From Bryobacteraceae bacterium (lineage in GTDB: Bacteria > Acidobacteriota > Terriglobia > Bryobacterales > Bryobacteraceae), in NCBI GenBank assembly GCA_025927575.1, contig JAICLJ010000005.1, forward strand, positions 1 through 64,000: a stretch of DNA of 64,000 nucleotides, in the 5' to 3' direction. The notes under the pieces are model-generated. The model made no database searches. It had not been told where the DNA came from and worked only from the letters and a program-made list of their open reading frames with translations. Of the stretch, positions 30,621 to 38,663 are shown piece by piece; within the stretch, counting starts at the first letter, position 1; the number at the start of each line of letters is the position of its first letter. The translations under genes were made by a program, and so were the position numbers.

Positions 30621-30689
30621 TTTGTTTTTCTCCGCGTGCGCCGACTGCATTTTACTAGCTGCCGGCGGAAAATTGAGAGACTAGTCCAG

Positions 30690-31571
30690 ATGCGCATCAT
30701 CAGCGTTGGCGAAATACTGTGGGACGTCATTGGCGGCAGCGAGTATCTCGGAGGGGCGCCGTTCAATCTGTGCGCTCATTTGGCCCGCCTCGGGCACCAG
30801 GCATCCTTTGTCAGCGGCGTGGGTTGTGACGACCGCGGCCGCCGCGCGTTGGAAAGGGCAGAGGAACTCGGCATCGACGTCCGGTACGTGGACCGCACGG
30901 AACACGCGCCCACGGGGATTTCAGAAGTCACGCTGAACGATGAAGGACATGGCGAGCATAAATTGTTGCGCCCGGCCGCTTATGATTTCGTTCAATTGAC
31001 GGAAAATCAGCGCTTAGCATTAGCCGACGAGCAGCCTGCGTGGTTGTGTTACGGTACGCTGGCGCAGATAGAATCCAATCCGCGCCTGCTGACGCAGCAG
31101 TTGATGCAAGAGAATAGCAGCGCGAAGCGTTTTTACGATGCTAACTTGCGCCCCAATTCCTGGACTTCCGATCTAGTGAATCAACTGTGCCGCGAGGCGA
31201 ATGCAATTAAACTGAACGAGGAAGAAGCGTCCGTGCTCAGCGGCGTTTTTGGTTTGCCACCCCATCCTCTGAATCGATTCTGCGAAATGGCGTCAGGGCG
31301 ATTTGAGTTCGATGTTGTCTGTGTCACGCGCGGTCCGGATGGATGCGCGTTATGGAGAAATGGCGAGTATTTGGAATCGCCCGGGTTCGTTGTAAATATC
31401 GGCGATACAGTAGGATCGGGCGACGCCTTCTCGGCGGCTCTTCTCCACGGCTTGCAGGCGGGCTGGCCGGTACGCGAGATTGCACAATTCGCGAATCGTG
31501 TAGGAGCACTGGTCGCGAGCCGCTCCGGAGCGACACCAACGTGGACTCTTGAAGAAGCGATGGCTTTATAG
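30690..31571 (+). CDS. PfkB-family carbohydrate kinase, probable fructokinase
   Basis: This 293-residue ribokinase-fold enzyme probably phosphorylates fructose to fructose-6-phosphate. The N-terminal sugar lid motif YLGGAPFNLCAHLARLG is the fructokinase-like form, and the C-terminal PfkB signature is GDTVGSGDAFSAAL with catalytic Asp245. The start MRIISVGEILWDV (ATG 30690) has GAGAG upstream; a longer open frame from 30636 overlaps rlmH and is unlikely. The next gene, GH32, follows within 15 bases. Together they form a fructan or sucrose utilisation pair in which GH32 frees fructose outside the cytoplasm and this kinase traps it inside. Confidence 0.88.
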   Translation: MRIISVGEILWDVIGGSEYLGGAPFNLCAHLARLGHQASFVSGVGCDDRGRRALERAEELGIDVRYVDRTEHAPTGISEVTLNDEGHGEHKLLRPAAYDFVQLTENQRLALADEQPAWLCYGTLAQIESNPRLLTQQLMQENSSAKRFYDANLRPNSWTSDLVNQLCREANAIKLNEEEASVLSGVFGLPPHPLNRFCEMASGRFEFDVVCVTRGPDGCALWRNGEYLESPGFVVNIGDTVGSGDAFSAALLHGLQAGWPVREIAQFANRVGALVASRSGATPTWTLEEAMAL

Positions 31572-31582
31572 GAACCCGGTTG

Positions 31583-33121
31583 ATGAGAAAAACACTGCTC
31601 CTGCTGATAGGCGCGCTGTGCATCATCGCAGCCGACATACCGACGCGAACGTTCGATGGACCGTTCCGGTTGGAATATCATTTCACTCCACCTCGGAACT
31701 GGACCAACGATCCGAACGGGCTGGTTTATTACAAGGGCGAGTACCACCTTTTTTACCAATACAATCCGTTCGGAACCAAATGGGGGCACATGAGTTGGGG
31801 TCACGCCGTAAGCCCGGATCTGGTGCACTGGCGGGATCTACCTGTGGCATTGCTGGAAGAAAACGGCATTATGATTTTCTCCGGCAGCGCTGTGGTCGAC
31901 GAGCACAACTCGAGCGGCCTGTGCCATAACAGTGATGCAACGGATCGGTCCTGTCTAGTCGCGATCTATACCGGAAACACGTCCAAACTGCAGACTCAGA
32001 ACATAGCTTATAGCAACGACCGCGGGCGCACGTGGACTAAATACAAGGGCAATCCCGTGATCGACCTGGGGTTGAAGAATTTTCGTGACCCGAAGGTGAT
32101 GTGGTATGCGCCCCAGAAGAAATGGGTGATGACCACGGCGCTTTCCGACCGGCAGAAGCTGCGGTTTTTCGAATCGCACGACCTGATTCACTGGAAGGCA
32201 TTAAGCGATTTTGGTCCTGCCGGCGCTACCGGCGGCGCGTGGGAGTGTCCTGATCTCTTTGAGCTTCCGGTATCCGGGGCAAGCGAAAAGCGATGGGTGC
32301 TAGTGGTCAATATCAACCCTGGCGGCGTGGCGGGAGGTTCGGGAACACAATATTTCATCGGGCGTTTCGATGGCACGCGGTTCACGAACGAGAACGCCGC
32401 CTCGGAACAGCTTTGGATGGACTACGGCAAAGATTATTATGCGGCCGTTTCCTATTTCGGCCCTCCGAATTCTCGCCGAATCATGATCGGCTGGCTCTCA
32501 AACTGGCAATACGCAAACGATACGCCTGAAACGGATTGGCGCGGCGCGATGAGCTTGCCCCGCAGGATCGCACTGGTAAAGACTTCATCCGGCGTCCGCG
32601 TACAGCAGCACCCTGTCCCCGAATTGCAAAGCCTGCGTGTTCCTTCTATCGTGCAAAGCGGACCGATCGACATAAGCGGGGCGAACAAATTGCTTGGAAA
32701 GGGGATTGCGGGCGCAAAAGCCATCGAGATGGAGCTTGCGTTCGACGCCGGCTCCGCTCGCAGGTTTGGAATAGCTGTTTTCAAAGGGGGGCACCAACAG
32801 ACGCTGGTGGGCGTGGACCGCGGCCGCTCGACGGTATTTGTCGACCGGCGCAATTCCGGGCCGGTGGACTTCAACAAGGATTTCCCATGCCGGAGCGATG
32901 GCCCAGTACACATTGGTAAAACCGTGACGCTGCACATTTTCCTCGACAAGTCTTCGGTCGAAGTGTTCGCAAACGACGGCGAAACCACGCTCGCCGACCG
33001 CGTGTACCCAGGCTCCGCCAGCACGGGCGCCAGTATTTTCAGCGAAGGGGGAGATGCGCGCATACGGGCGCTGAAGATATGGCGGCTGAAAACGGCCTGG
33101 AAGAAAACCGCCGCGCGCTGA
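31583..33121 (+). CDS. Secreted GH32 beta-fructosidase (levanase/invertase type)
   Basis: This 512-residue enzyme hydrolyses beta-fructosides. The signal peptide is MRKTLLLLIGALCIIAADIP. The GH32 catalytic set is complete: nucleophile Asp43 in WTNDPNG, transition-state stabiliser Asp169 in FRDPKV, and acid-base Glu221 in WECPDLF. A five-bladed propeller is followed by a C-terminal beta-sandwich (KTVTLHIFLDKSSVEVFAN), the usual GH32 architecture. An AGGA lies 9 bases before the ATG at 31583; a TTG one codon upstream is possible. It is coupled to the fructokinase upstream. Periplasmic or extracellular sucrose, levan or inulin is the likely substrate. Confidence 0.93.
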   Translation: MRKTLLLLIGALCIIAADIPTRTFDGPFRLEYHFTPPRNWTNDPNGLVYYKGEYHLFYQYNPFGTKWGHMSWGHAVSPDLVHWRDLPVALLEENGIMIFSGSAVVDEHNSSGLCHNSDATDRSCLVAIYTGNTSKLQTQNIAYSNDRGRTWTKYKGNPVIDLGLKNFRDPKVMWYAPQKKWVMTTALSDRQKLRFFESHDLIHWKALSDFGPAGATGGAWECPDLFELPVSGASEKRWVLVVNINPGGVAGGSGTQYFIGRFDGTRFTNENAASEQLWMDYGKDYYAAVSYFGPPNSRRIMIGWLSNWQYANDTPETDWRGAMSLPRRIALVKTSSGVRVQQHPVPELQSLRVPSIVQSGPIDISGANKLLGKGIAGAKAIEMELAFDAGSARRFGIAVFKGGHQQTLVGVDRGRSTVFVDRRNSGPVDFNKDFPCRSDGPVHIGKTVTLHIFLDKSSVEVFANDGETTLADRVYPGSASTGASIFSEGGDARIRALKIWRLKTAWKKTAAR

Positions 33122-33221: not shown

Positions 33222-33905
33222 ATGCGCGGGCTTGCCTTGACTCTCGCCGCTCTCGTTGCGTCCAGTCCGGCCATGCAGGGTTCGGAGCTGGCCGGAAAGA
33301 TCACCCTCGACCGCAAAATGGTCAGGAAATCGCTCGCTCCCGCAGTGTACGATCTGCGTGGCATGGCCGTCGCGGACAGGCCCGCTTACAGTCCGGGACA
33401 AGGGACATTTGGAAGGGTGGCGGTCTGGTTAGAGGGTGGAGATTCGAACTTTCTCGGCCCGGTGGCTGCCACTATGAATCAGAAGGGCCGTCATTTCGAA
33501 CCTGAACTTCTAATCGTTCCCACCGGATCGACGATCTCATTCCCCAATCTAGATCCGATCTTTCACAACATTTTTTCTTTGTCCCGGGCGCGGAAATTCG
33601 ACCTCGGCTATTACTCCGAAGGGAAGAGCCGCGACGTGGTCTTTCCGAAAGCAGGAATTGTCCAGGTTTATTGCCATATCCATCCGGAAATGTACGGCGT
33701 GGTTATCGTTACTTCCAGCAAATGGACAGCCCACCCCAATCCCGATGGAAACTTCTCCTGGCCGGACATCCCGGCCGGAAAATACCGGCTAATGGTCTGG
33801 CAACGTTCGGCGGGGCTGCAAGAGAAACGAGTAACGATTCCACAATCCGGCAGCGTTCAGGTTGAGGTGAGGCTGCCCGAAGAAAGCGAAGACACGGCCC
33901 GGTAA
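33222..33905 (+). CDS. Periplasmic cupredoxin-domain protein
   Basis: This 227-residue protein begins with a short signal peptide ending near [10 protein letters not shown]. Residues 62-165 form a plastocyanin-like domain with a type 1 copper set: His115 (FHNIFSLS), Cys151 (VYCHIHPEM), His154 and Met157. Residues 170-220 look like a small carboxypeptidase-regulatory beta-sandwich ([18 protein letters not shown]). This layout resembles methylamine-utilisation-type plastocyanin proteins. Two bases separate it from the membrane histidine kinase gene, itself overlapping a beta-barrel gene, so the copper protein may be a redox sensor or electron carrier for that unit. Electron donor and acceptor are unknown. 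Confidence 0.87.
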
Positions 33906-33906
33906 G

Positions 33907-35742
33907 ATGCGACCGCCAAGCATGCGCAGGCTTCCTCTCGCAACACGCGCCTTCCTCTATTCCTTTATTCCCGTTTGCGCGGTTTTGTTGGTTTGCTTTG
34001 TCGCTATCACGGCCGCCGTCCATCAAAGAATCAGGCAAGACCTTCGCGACAATCTTCAGAATGCCGACCACCTCCTGAACATTGCCAACGCTGAATTCTC
34101 CCGTGAAAACTCCGCGCTTCTTGCCAAGATGACCGATAGCGCCGGAATTAAAGCTTCCGTAGGCCTCCTCGCAGAAGCGGGCCTCAATCCCTCGCTACGC
34201 CATCAGGTGCGTTCCACAATCGAAGCACAACTGTGGGAGTTGCAGAACGCCTCGTTCTATGACCTGCTGGCGATATCAGATCTGCGCGGACACACTGTCG
34301 CCGCGATTTGCGCCTCCAGAAAACTGTCTGGTGATGTTTCAGCTGTTCCAGCACAATCCGGACTGGCCGAAATCGACGGTATTTTGTTTCAGCTTCAATC
34401 CGTGCCGATCGACATCGGCGGCGAGACCGCAGCAACGCTGAGCTTGGGGCGCCGGTTCAACCTCACCCGTTCCGTCCTGGCCGGCGATGCGGTTCTTCTG
34501 AAGAACAGCAAGGTCGTGCTCTCGACATTTCCGGCCGCGGTCACTCGGGAGCTAACCGCCCACATTCAGAGCACATGCCCGCAATTAGAAGCCGGTTGTG
34601 AAATACCAGTAGCCGGCAAGTCGTATGTCGTGTCAGACCTTCAGCGCGCGCAGTTAGGCCGGGGCTATCGACTACTTGGCTTTCGCTCGCTCGATGACGG
34701 CTTACGGGCATTCAACCGGGCGTTCGTGCCCATAATGCTCGAGATCGGCGCGGGAGGCGTATTGCTCGCGCTGCTCTGCACCTTTCTGACGTCCCGTTCG
34801 GTTTCACAGCCGTTGTCTCAACTCGCTTCCCAGTTGTACGCCAGTGCCGAATCAGGCGTGCTCCCCGACAAACTCGATCCGGGTAAGGGCGTGCAAGAAG
34901 TCGATCTGGTTGTAAGCGCTTTTAACCACGTCGCCGAAGCTGAGCGCCGCTCCCGTTCCGAACTTATTCAAGCGAAACACGCTGCGGAATCGGCAAATCG
35001 CCTGAAAACCGAGTTTATGACCAATGTCAGTCATGAACTCCGCACTCCCATGAATGGCGTTCTCGGAATGATGGAACTGCTTCTCTCCACTCCCCTCAAC
35101 GAGGAGCAGCAAGAATATGCAGAAGCCGTGCGCGAGTCCGGCCACGATCTTCTGGCGTTAATCGACGACATACTGGACTTCTCGCAAATCGAAACCGGAA
35201 AGGCGAATCTGGCGCCTTCAGTATGCGATCTCAAAGCCGTTTTCGAGAATGCGTATGCCACCACTCGCGCGCGAGCGCAAGGTAAACCGGTAAGGGTAGA
35301 GGGGATGTTCGACACAGCAGTTCCGCGTTGGGTGCTTAGCGACGCATCACGGCTTCTCCAAGTATTTAAGCAACTCTGCGGGAACGCCGTGAAGTTCACG
35401 CAATCCGGTTCGATTCATATTTCCCTGCAGTGCCTGAGCAAAATGGACGCCGAGGCGATCGTAAAGTTTTCGGTTGAAGATACGGGAATCGGAATTGCGG
35501 CGGAATATCTCGATCTGATTTTTGACCGCTTCACTCAGGTGGACGGATCCCTGACACGGCGCCAGGGTGGAACCGGGATCGGGCTTTGCATAGCGAAGCG
35601 CAGCGTTGAATTGATGGGAGGCACAATCCACGTTGAAAGCCGTCCCGGCGCCGGCTCGACGTTCTGGTTTACTCTTCCCGTTTGCGTCGTGGAGCAAACC
35701 AGCGGCCAACTAATCCAGCAGCAAGCGATAGTGGCGCGATGA
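33907..35742 (+). CDS. Membrane sensor histidine kinase with periplasmic sensor domain
   Basis: This 611-residue kinase has one membrane helix near residues 17-38, a periplasmic sensor of about 240 residues (CHASE/Cache-like by position, with two Cys-containing stretches [12 protein letters not shown]), a second helix near 275-298 and a HAMP-like linker. HisKA follows with His376 ([10 protein letters not shown]), then HATPase with N-box GNAVKFT, DTGIGI and GGTGIGL. It carries no receiver, and no response-regulator gene touches it. The upstream cupredoxin and the downstream outer-membrane barrel (4-base overlap) suggest it senses an envelope redox or metal signal. Its kinase core closely matches the soluble PAS kinase at 10530. 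Confidence 0.9.
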
Positions 35743-36998
35743 CCCGCTACGTGGCCGTCTTTGTCGCGGCATCACTCATGACTTCGTGGCTCGCCGCTCA
35801 GGAAGCCAGTTCGGGATTATCAATTGCCGCAACAATCAGCGCCGATGGCCGCGTGGTCCGATCGCAGGAAGGTGGGGAGTTGGCGCAAAATCGGGCAACC
35901 GCAGGCTTTCGCGCCCTCCTCTCACCGTCGCTCCGGCTCAATTCTCATTGGTTTGCGTATTCAGTTGTCGATGTCCAATCGTCGAATTACCTCAGCTACA
36001 AACTAGGTTGGGACAGCGGCAGCCCAGTTAAGGCCAGCCTGATGCAGGGCTACATTGGCTACAGAGCCGATTTGAAATCAGCCTCGATCCTCGTGAAAGC
36101 CGGGCGCCTCGTCTCCGCTTTCGGGCTGTATCCACTGGACTACGATGACGCGAAAACAGCAATGATCGAACCGCCGCCGGCATACACCGCAAACTTGCCA
36201 CTGCGTCCGGATCAACTTCCTTGCAATCTCTTCAACGTCTTGTACCAGGGCTACGAGGACGGTGTCCGGTTCAACTGCAATGGGCCCGTTAAGAACCATC
36301 GAGGGATTGTCCCGGTGACCTTATACGGCATCCCTGGCTTCGAGACCCAGGTCTCCTGGAAGCGGATGGATGCTCGGCTTCAGATTACTAACAGTTCACC
36401 GGCGAATCCACAATCTCTTCTTTCCGGAAGCCAGTCTCTCCAGTGGACTGCCGGAGGCGGCTATAGCTTTCACGGCGGTTTTCATCTCGGTATCTCCGGT
36501 TTTCGCGGCCCCTATCTCGAAGACGTTCTTATGCCGCTGTTGCCATCGGGAAAACGAATTTGTGATTATCCGGCTTCGGGTATTGGCATCGACGCCACTT
36601 TCTCCCGTGGGCCCTGGTCGTTCAATGGAGAATGGCAACGTTTCGTATTTTCACTCCCGGCATGGACCGTCTCGCCTTCCGATCAAGCTGAGTATTTAGA
36701 AGTCAAACGTATATTGTCGCCGCGCATTTATATTGCCTTTCGCAGCTCCGGGCAACAACCTGGTCCTGCCACGGATTTCTTCAACAATTCCTCTTCACAG
36801 ATAGCCGCGCGCCAGGAGACGGAAGAATTGGTTTGGGGATATCGCCTCAGCCGCTTGCAACTTCTAAAAGCAGGGCTCACTTACTCAAATCGCAACGCCG
36901 GATATTGGGGTAACGATTATTGGCATGGAGAACATGGCTTCGGGGCAGAGATCCAACTCGTTACATCTTTGGATGCGATATCCAAGGCATTCCGCTAA
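35739..36998 (+). CDS. Outer-membrane beta-barrel (porin-like) protein
   Basis: The ATG at 35739 overlaps the kinase stop (ATGA); the 419-residue product has a signal peptide ([20 protein letters not shown]). The mature chain alternates short amphipathic strands rich in aromatic and polar residues ([48 protein letters not shown]) and ends in [13 protein letters not shown] without a clear C-terminal aromatic. It reads as an outer-membrane barrel of 16-18 strands, similar in style to phosphate- or alginate-selective porins, but no family was identified. It is coupled in translation to the sensor kinase, so signal uptake or ligand entry is the likely link. Confidence 0.78.
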
Positions 36999-37041: not shown

Positions 37042-37773
37042 CTAGTCGAGCCCAGGCGCGGCGATGAAACGGTAGCCAATTCCTCGAACCGTCAGCAGGT
37101 GCCGCGGGCGCTTAGGGTCGTCCTCGATATACCGCCGCAAACGCACAATGAAGTTGTCGATGGGGCGGGTATCTGTGTCCTCGTGTAACGCCCAGACCTC
37201 TTCGAGCATCGACTTCCTCGAAACTGGCTTCCCCTCGTAACGAATGAGGTAGCGCAGCAAGTTCGCCTCCATCAGCGTGAGTGGAAACACGCGATCGCCG
37301 ACGCGCAATTCCAGAGTGTCGAAACTGACCGTCTTGCCATCGAATGTGAACGTATCCCTCTCATCCGTTGGCCCCGAACCTCGATTAGTCGAGGAGAGCA
37401 GCCAGTCCCGACGGCGCAGCAGTCCGTGAATTCGCGCAATCAAAATTGAGAGGTCGAACGGCTTGGTTAGGTAATCGTCGGCTCCGGCCGCAAAGCCGCG
37501 AAGAACGTCGTCGGGCCTCCCCCGAGCCGTGAGCATCAGCGTCGGGATGAACTGGCCACCGAGCCGCATCTCCGACATGACATGGAAGCCATCCACGCCG
37601 GGAAGCATGATATCGAGAATCACCACATCGAAACGCTGGGCTCCGGCCAGCAGCACTCCAAGCGCAGCCTCGCCGGAGTCTGCCACCTGGACTTCGTAGC
37701 CCTCCGCTTCAAGGTTAAAGCGCAGACCCTCTGCAAGGTGCTGCTCATCCTCCACCACCAGAACGCGTGTCAT
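37042..37773 (-). CDS. OmpR/PhoB-family response regulator
   Basis: This 243-residue DNA-binding regulator has a receiver domain with acidic pocket Glu8/Asp9, phospho-acceptor Asp54 (VVILDIMLPG) and Lys104 (YLTKPF). The C-terminal winged helix begins near residue 145 (VSFDTLELRVGDRVFPLTLMEANLLRYL) and includes the recognition segment TRPIDNFIVRLRRYIE. It overlaps the upstream kinase gene by 4 bases, so the two form a cognate pair. Its own promoter region upstream of the kinase carries a 16-base palindrome that might be its binding site. The regulon is unknown. Confidence 0.95.
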   Translation of the reverse strand: MTRVLVVEDEQHLAEGLRFNLEAEGYEVQVADSGEAALGVLLAGAQRFDVVILDIMLPGVDGFHVMSEMRLGGQFIPTLMLTARGRPDDVLRGFAAGADDYLTKPFDLSILIARIHGLLRRRDWLLSSTNRGSGPTDERDTFTFDGKTVSFDTLELRVGDRVFPLTLMEANLLRYLIRYEGKPVSRKSMLEEVWALHEDTDTRPIDNFIVRLRRYIEDDPKRPRHLLTVRGIGYRFIAAPGLD

Positions 37774-38663
37774 CTTGCGATCGGAAATTGCAGCACGAAT
37801 GTGCTGCCCTGCCCGGGCCCCTCACTCTCCGCCCAACTGCGTCCGCGGTGCCGCTTGGCCACGGCGCGAACGATGAAAAGGCCCAGCCCTGTCCCCTTCA
37901 CTTTGTTTGTCAGCGGCCCCGGCACACGATAAAAGCGCTTGAACACCCGTTTCAGCTCCGGTTTCGGAATGCCCACACCCTGATCCTTAACTCGCAGGCA
38001 GATATATTTCCCTTCAACATTGGAGGTTTCGAGACTGACCTTTACCATGCTGCCGGAATACTTGATCGCGTTGTCAATCAGGTTCGAGACAGCCGCGCGC
38101 ACCTCATCCATGTCCCCCAATATAATGACTGGCGATCCGGGTTGGTAGTCCAAGGCTTCGGGCGGCACGCGATGCAGGATGCGCGCGCGAGCGACACATT
38201 CATCGATTACCGCGCCAAACTCGATCGGAAACAGATTGGGTTTGCGCGCGGCAGCGCCGATCCTCCCGGTGCGCAAAACCTGCTCGATTGTGCTCATCAG
38301 GCGGTTGGTGTCCTCGAGCATGACTTGGTAAAACTCTTTCCTCTTCTCCTCGTCTACACTTCGGGCTTGCAGCGTCTCAAGATACAGCCGAATGGATGCT
38401 ACGGGGGTCTTCAGCTCATGCGTGACCGCGTTGATGAAAGCATCATGCTGTTCATTCCGGCGAATTTCGCGGACAAGAAAGATTGTGTTCAAGACGACGC
38501 CGCTGATGATCATAAGCAGCAACAACACTCCAAAAAAGAGCAGAATGCCGGTTCGCCAGTTCAGAAGAACCCAACCGATATAGAGCAGCAGGATAACCGA
38601 AATGAGGCCGGCTCCAAGAGCAATGAAGAACGCGATCGATTTCTTGCGGCCTGCTAAGACCAT
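37770..38663 (-). CDS. Sensor histidine kinase, cognate to the OmpR-type regulator
   Basis: This 297-residue kinase has two adjacent membrane helices (residues 9-33 and 39-64) with almost no periplasmic loop, so it probably senses something within the membrane or through a partner. HisKA contains His82 (NAVTHELKTPVASIRLYLE); HATPase has the N-box NLIDNAIKYS, G1 DQGVGIPK and G2 GTGLGLFIVRAVAKRHRG. It is first in the two-gene operon and divergent from a flippase-like gene, with 85 bases of intergenic DNA between them. Intramembrane-sensing kinases of this shape often report cell-envelope stress; that is inference here. Confidence 0.93.
   Translation of the reverse strand: MVLAGRKKSIAFFIALGAGLISVILLLYIGWVLLNWRTGILLFFGVLLLLMIISGVVLNTIFLVREIRRNEQHDAFINAVTHELKTPVASIRLYLETLQARSVDEEKRKEFYQVMLEDTNRLMSTIEQVLRTGRIGAAARKPNLFPIEFGAVIDECVARARILHRVPPEALDYQPGSPVIILGDMDEVRAAVSNLIDNAIKYSGSMVKVSLETSNVEGKYICLRVKDQGVGIPKPELKRVFKRFYRVPGPLTNKVKGTGLGLFIVRAVAKRHRGRSWAESEGPGQGSTFVLQFPIAR

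Follow-up and report, generated by a model that had tools for sequence, protein, structure and literature searches.

Organization of the locus

The window, i.e., the whole stretch of DNA analysed here, comprises 64,000 nucleotides of a Bryobacteraceae bacterium (Acidobacteriota; GenBank assembly GCA_025927575.1, contig JAICLJ010000005.1, positions 1 to 64,000). At 33222-36998, three genes on the + strand encode a cupredoxin, a sensor kinase and an outer-membrane barrel. A gap of 1 base separates the cupredoxin gene from the kinase gene, and the kinase and barrel genes overlap by 4 bases (ATGA). The coordinates, strands and spacings given in an earlier note on this DNA proved exact on re-reading. 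The locus comprises the following features:

33222..33905, + strand: exported cupredoxin, 227 aa, with a signal peptide, an amicyanin-like type 1 copper domain and a C-terminal CarboxypepD_reg-like beta-sandwich
33474..33710, + strand: cupredoxin domain (ligands read in the sequence; aligned with solved cupredoxins)
33705..33875, + strand: CarboxypepD_reg / EMC7-like beta-sandwich of the cupredoxin (Pfam, below gathering score; profile hits in the PDB: NOMO2 and EMC7)
33907..35742, + strand: receiver-less sensor histidine kinase, 611 aa (HisKA and HATPase_c)
34021..34731, + strand: predicted periplasmic double-Cache sensor domain, residues about 39-275 (TM prediction, AlphaFold, Foldseek, dCache_3 in homologous sensors)
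34576..34599, + strand: Cys224-x6-Cys231 pair of the sensor domain (sensor alignment)
34789..34947, + strand: HAMP-like linker of the kinase (Pfam E = 4e-4, below gathering score)
35005..35682, + strand: HisKA and HATPase_c kinase core (domain scan)
35739..36998, + strand: predicted outer-membrane porin-like beta-barrel, 419 aa, without a Pfam name (AlphaFold model; Foldseek to porins)

The trio is flanked upstream by a GH32-enzyme-like gene that ends at 33121 and downstream by an OmpR-type regulator with its own kinase (37042-38663), which are convergent with the trio. Given these flanking genes, the trio looks like an isolated three-gene operon. The GH32 gene, levanase/fructosidase-like as read from the sequence, follows a sugar-kinase-like gene (both within 30636-33121), and the two may form a fructan-use pair unrelated to the trio. 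No cognate response regulator gene adjoins the window kinase. The downstream OmpR-type pair is an improbable source of the cognate regulator, since its regulator is already paired with a kinase and homologues of it do not recur beside the modules of the window's clade. A survey of the flanks of these clade modules returned neither recurrent neighbours nor a linked regulator, and a motif scan returned no sigma-54 element near the window trio.

Predicted properties of the three proteins

The copper ligands of the cupredoxin are His115 (33564-33566), Cys151 (33672-33674), His154 (33681-33683) and Met157 (33690-33692). This H/C/H/M set is invariant among the aligned cupredoxin homologues (51/51), and the C-x2-H-x2-M spacing corresponds to that in amicyanin. 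Among solved structures, a 20-row profile of the family aligns with domains of plastocyanin, amicyanin and copper nitrite reductase. Because the window protein by itself lies under the Pfam cut-offs (Copper-bind E = 0.007), the assignment rests on the family profile and ligand conservation. With this ligand motif the protein classifies as a type 1 cupredoxin of the plastocyanin/amicyanin fold with a predicted copper site. It was rejected as the amicyanin of methylamine utilization (13.5 bits with the amicyanin equivalog model versus a cut-off of 110.2), and no methylamine dehydrogenase genes occur in the flanks of the window trio or of the homologous loci examined. Proteins annotated as ‘methylamine utilization protein’ (amicyanin-like) belong to the family of the window cupredoxin. 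Methylamine dehydrogenase genes were not seen next to them either, and the name seems to have been given for their similarity to amicyanin.

In the kinase, a Pfam scan identifies HisKA and HATPase_c domains and a weak HAMP domain, the receiver domain being absent. The HisKA domain carries the phospho-acceptor histidine, which together with HATPase_c places the protein among class I histidine kinases. Two TM segments, predicted around residues 29 and 285, bracket about 237 periplasmic residues, for which the AlphaFold model (pLDDT 85) takes the form of a double Cache: an extended N-terminal helix and a stack of two Cache modules lie between the two predicted TM helices. Foldseek neighbours of the modelled domain are the ligand-binding domains of PctA, Tlp3 and DctB. 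The dCache_3 Pfam match is confined to homologous sensors, the window kinase itself giving none. Of the 14 sensors in the window's clade, 10 have a cysteine pair like Cys224/Cys231, whereas sensors of other clades lack one. In the window sensor it could act as a redox switch, while a universal disulfide switch was rejected given this limited distribution.

The window barrel has no Pfam match and no PDB sequence match. Its AlphaFold model, computed from 14 sequences (pLDDT 76), is porin-like, and Foldseek returns BpsOmp38 (E 6e-15) followed by PorB and OprP. With a signal peptide and a modelled closed porin-type transmembrane beta-barrel, the protein is probably an outer-membrane porin of an unnamed sequence family, and it may serve as a channel, an anchor or an effector. 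The three gene products named in the earlier note are thus recovered: a type 1 copper protein with the four ligands above (in the sequence itself, in 51/51 homologues and in a profile that matches solved cupredoxins), a receiver-less kinase with a periplasmic domain of roughly 240 residues (HisKA and HATPase_c, about 237 residues between the TM segments) and, as third gene, a beta-barrel (porin-type model and Foldseek porin matches).

Conservation and co-inheritance of the trio

Cupredoxin homologues in relatives led to 13 loci in which cupredoxin, sensor and barrel are adjacent. As a cupredoxin-led search is biased towards cupredoxin, a search with the barrel only was run next. Out of 151 relatives, 15 genomes carry the barrel, including the window's own, and 13 of the other 14 are trio loci. 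Across the phylum, the barrel is present in 40 of 396 genomes, again including the window's genome. Forty barrel loci were read from this phylum search, in which some genomes have two barrels and many survey genomes are fragmented. All three genes are found by profile in 33 of these loci, and the cupredoxin is present in 37. In L137, which is not among the 33 complete loci, a kinase-like gene missed by the sensor profile lies between cupredoxin and barrel, and L136 is cut by a contig edge. Two barrels (L131 and L151; 2/40) occur without cupredoxin or sensor, and three of the 40 occur without a sensor. The sensor-less barrels (L131, L135 and L151, at G510:C93, G468:C1 and G473:C225) form their own clade, starred in the barrel tree. 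In every trio the genes lie on one strand with tight spacing, in one of two orders: CUP-SENSOR-BARREL, the window type, or BARREL-CUP-SENSOR.

Trees built from each of the three proteins agree in their main groups. Pairwise distances among the three proteins correlate with r values of 0.86-0.90 over 46 loci and of 0.55-0.72 inside clades. Given rpoB distances, the partial r is 0.50-0.75 (p <= 0.0004; 12 genomes of the window's clade), in a test with small samples and quick trees that leaves out the fragmentary rpoB of the window genome.

The output domain behind the sensor does vary. A HisKA/HATPase output is found in the window, L045-L047 and L049, a hybrid kinase with two receivers in L055, an HD-GYP output in L048, L050, L052-L054, L056, L115, L146, L147 and L152-L154, and a LytS-type kinase in L075. 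The output changes at least three times on the sensor tree and more often on the cupredoxin and barrel trees. The earlier note had counted the kinase as a part of the unit. A histidine kinase is indeed present in the window, but the kinase is not constant: cupredoxin and dCache sensor are, whereas the output is swapped for HD-GYP, LytS or GGDEF-EAL. As the trio recurs in distant bacteria with different outputs, it looks like a reusable device. In L150 (3938-5548), a cupredoxin is in frame with HD-GYP and a shortened sensor, while the cupredoxin start lies in another frame; this is either a real fusion or an assembly error. The cupredoxin-sensor fusion was not accepted as evidence, as the cupredoxin part is frameshifted.

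Since the trio is conserved in other genomes, a chance neighbourhood is practically excluded. An arrangement due to chance or lineage, free of functional coupling, would fit a barrel carried by just 15/151 relatives and 40/396 phylum genomes, but is highly improbable: the trio is conserved in many families of the phylum, with gene orders that are rearranged and outputs that are swapped, and its proteins co-vary beyond the species tree. The description of the locus as one coupled unit is therefore strongly supported (33/40 phylum loci and 13/14 relatives complete, same strand, co-varying trees). A search for the three-gene order elsewhere had been proposed, with a neighbourhood limited to close relatives, or a barrel and cupredoxin consistently linked to other genes, as observations that would speak against coupling. 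Order and linkage extend far beyond close relatives, and the barrel family nearly always lies beside a cupredoxin (37/40). The trio is likely a signalling unit.

Other modules with a cupredoxin and a dCache sensor

The window's own genome holds a second module (L074; G000:C279:1-4808), cut by the contig end and composed of a receiver protein, OMP2, a cupredoxin and a dCache_3-HAMP kinase. This OMP2 is a coiled-coil, porin-like protein that differs from the window barrel. L074 is one instance of a second module type, in which receiver proteins accompany OMP2, the cupredoxin and the kinase. Further modules in named organisms and other phyla were sampled through plasmid records. On Caballeronia and Novosphingobium plasmids, a cupredoxin, annotated as ‘methylamine utilization protein’ in Caballeronia, is followed by a protein of the dCache_3-HAMP-GGDEF-EAL type, together with DUF3034 and an exported group 1 truncated haemoglobin. 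In Comamonas, the cupredoxin lies beside an EAL protein and a DUF4394 protein. More generally, the amicyanin-like ‘methylamine utilization protein’ of Pseudomonadota adjoins dCache-HAMP-GGDEF-EAL proteins. The group 1 truncated haemoglobin shares an operon with DUF3034, cupredoxin and GGDEF-EAL in L041, L042, L043, L156 and L157; with a signal peptide read in L041, it is possibly a periplasmic haem protein.

Aligned with hhalign, the window-type sensor matches both other sensor sets, from the OMP2 and the Pseudomonadota modules, with 99.3% and 99.7% probability, in a comparison made without an unrelated dCache sensor as control. A profile comparison detected no similarity of OMP2 or DUF3034 to the window barrel, and a single barrel family for all modules was accordingly rejected. 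OMP2 and DUF3034 are putative barrels on the basis of exported, Phe-terminated, strand-rich sequences.

A double Cache usually binds small ligands, and the cupredoxin therefore need not be the input. The sensor could bind a ligand admitted by the porin, with the cupredoxin as a regulated electron carrier, and hence an output, that shares the operon. The structural neighbours of the sensor, being the ligand-binding Cache domains of PctA, Tlp3 and DctB, agree with such a reading. So do more distant cupredoxins of the same fold (L076, L081, L082, L084), which lie without a sensor beside bc1-type, c-cytochrome or cytochrome c peroxidase-like genes, as expected of electron carriers. We nevertheless consider it unlikely, because changes of barrel family, output domain and host lineage all leave the cupredoxin in place, as would be expected more readily of an input subunit than of a single regulated carrier.

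A sigma-54-linked redox operon in a related branch

A branch separate from that of the window combines the order BARREL-CUP-HK with an NtrC-type regulator. In its 22 BARREL-CUP-HK loci (among L116-L145), the kinase gene is followed by a regulator gene with a GAFTGA-type motif (22/22). The regulator that was scanned, that of L119, combines a receiver with a sigma-54 AAA domain and a Fis-type HTH. At 28-221 bases past the regulator gene, 17 of the 22 loci contain GGCAY-N5-TTGC, the sigma-54 -24/-12 consensus, compared to 0.12 loci expected from shuffles and 0.16 from the remainder of the same loci. The genes behind this element form varying sets of a CuA/COX2-like cupredoxin, a mono-haem CxxCH cytochrome c lipoprotein, a DUF5777 barrel and a cupredoxin-like lipoprotein. 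A sigma-54 element ahead of redox-protein genes points to extracytoplasmic redox proteins as targets of the module.

This operon also bears on a reading in which copper itself is sensed rather than redox state. Copper loading of the cupredoxin would then be the signal, the kinase would control copper handling and the porin would be a channel for copper or a copper chelate. The invariant copper ligands are compatible with it, and there is a partial precedent: the copper-induced curA operon of Myxococcus xanthus contains a cupredoxin co-transcribed with the kinase CorS and the sigma-54 regulator CorR, with sigma-54 promoters (PMC3707914). However, the curA operon includes genes for a multicopper oxidase and a P1B ATPase as well (PMC3707914), and no such genes recur beside the modules described here. 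Nor are efflux functions encoded in the linked sigma-54 operon, which specifies a DUF5777 barrel together with redox carriers. Pure copper sensing thus appears rather unlikely.

Proposed mechanism

Returning to the cupredoxin as input subunit, we put at about even odds that the trio is an envelope-spanning signalling module of this kind. The proposal builds on what can be read from sequence, namely the gene identities, intact copper site, operon-like spacing, conservation, co-inheritance, output exchange and, in a related branch, the sigma-54-linked redox operon. The exported cupredoxin would be the input subunit, its copper or redox state being set by periplasmic electron donors or acceptors, or by copper. 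This state would alter its docking on the inner-membrane sensor, at the double Cache, a contact that we infer. The change in docking would switch the cytoplasmic output, which is a histidine kinase in the window and an HD-GYP, LytS, hybrid kinase or GGDEF-EAL protein elsewhere. The barrel, as outer-membrane partner, may admit the signal molecule or hold the cupredoxin. A route from the cell surface to the kinase, as suggested in the earlier note, may thus exist, with copper or redox state as a plausible signal.

In a more tentative generalization, which we regard as possible yet somewhat doubtful, the modules represent a general class of envelope device. A blue-copper protein would then be a detachable input that reports redox or copper state, with a barrel partner, to a dCache sensor with an exchangeable output (phosphorelay, or c-di-GMP breakdown or synthesis). 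If true, this would be a signalling class based on a cupredoxin, the first that we could find, and a protein type seen so far mainly as an electron carrier would serve as a signalling subunit. One conserved input module would feed two-component or c-di-GMP circuits, and a function would be provided for the misnamed ‘methylamine utilization protein’ and for several barrel and DUF families (window barrel, DUF3034, DUF5777). Through the sigma-54 operon that accompanies one branch, a link of extracytoplasmic electron transfer to gene control can be tested directly.

Comparison with known systems

The earlier note knew of no described system with these three parts. This statement survives a limited, open-access literature search, which returned no described system with this arrangement and brought up YfiBNR/HmsCDE and CorSR as close analogues. 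By analogy, the former appears nearest in architecture and M. xanthus CorSR nearest in biology. YfiBNR of Pseudomonas aeruginosa and HmsCDE of Yersinia pestis consist of an outer-membrane protein, a periplasmic regulator and an inner-membrane sensor with a cytoplasmic output, and HmsC is a redox-sensitive periplasmic regulator (PMC3375315, PMC4655355, PMC5550408). Like the trio, they are tripartite and reach from the outer membrane to an inner-membrane sensor, a likeness that implies no homology of the parts. YfiR/HmsC is a disulfide-based repressor, whereas the periplasmic part of the trio is a cupredoxin, and the output is a diguanylate cyclase only, while the outputs of the trio vary. Membership in YfiBNR/HmsCDE was rejected, as the trio has a cupredoxin instead of a YfiR-type repressor and a porin-like barrel instead of a YfiB-type outer-membrane lipoprotein.

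CorSR/curA shares the part list of cupredoxin, histidine kinase and sigma-54 response regulator with the BARREL-CUP-HK-NtrC branch, minus the barrel. No outer-membrane barrel, such as the trio has, is reported for it, and its MXAN_3421 is a Cupredoxin_1 protein with a His-rich region. The window trio was rejected as a CorSR/curA copper-tolerance operon, since no sigma-54 response regulator or copper genes lie beside it, the combination of cupredoxin, histidine kinase and sigma-54 response regulator being found in the related branch. In the sources consulted, neither CorSR nor YfiBNR/HmsCDE is described as combining a copper protein with both a porin and a dCache sensor.

A third system, DbfQRS of Vibrio cholerae, sets a precedent for a small periplasmic protein that can gate a kinase. 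There, such a protein is encoded beside the kinase and binds its sensory domain, and the state of the outer membrane affects the output (PMC12714742). Unlike the cupredoxin of the trio, DbfQ is not described as a metalloprotein, and DbfQRS has no dedicated barrel. We group the trio with tripartite envelope signalling, as a variant that stands outside YfiBNR/HmsCDE, CorSR and DbfQRS.
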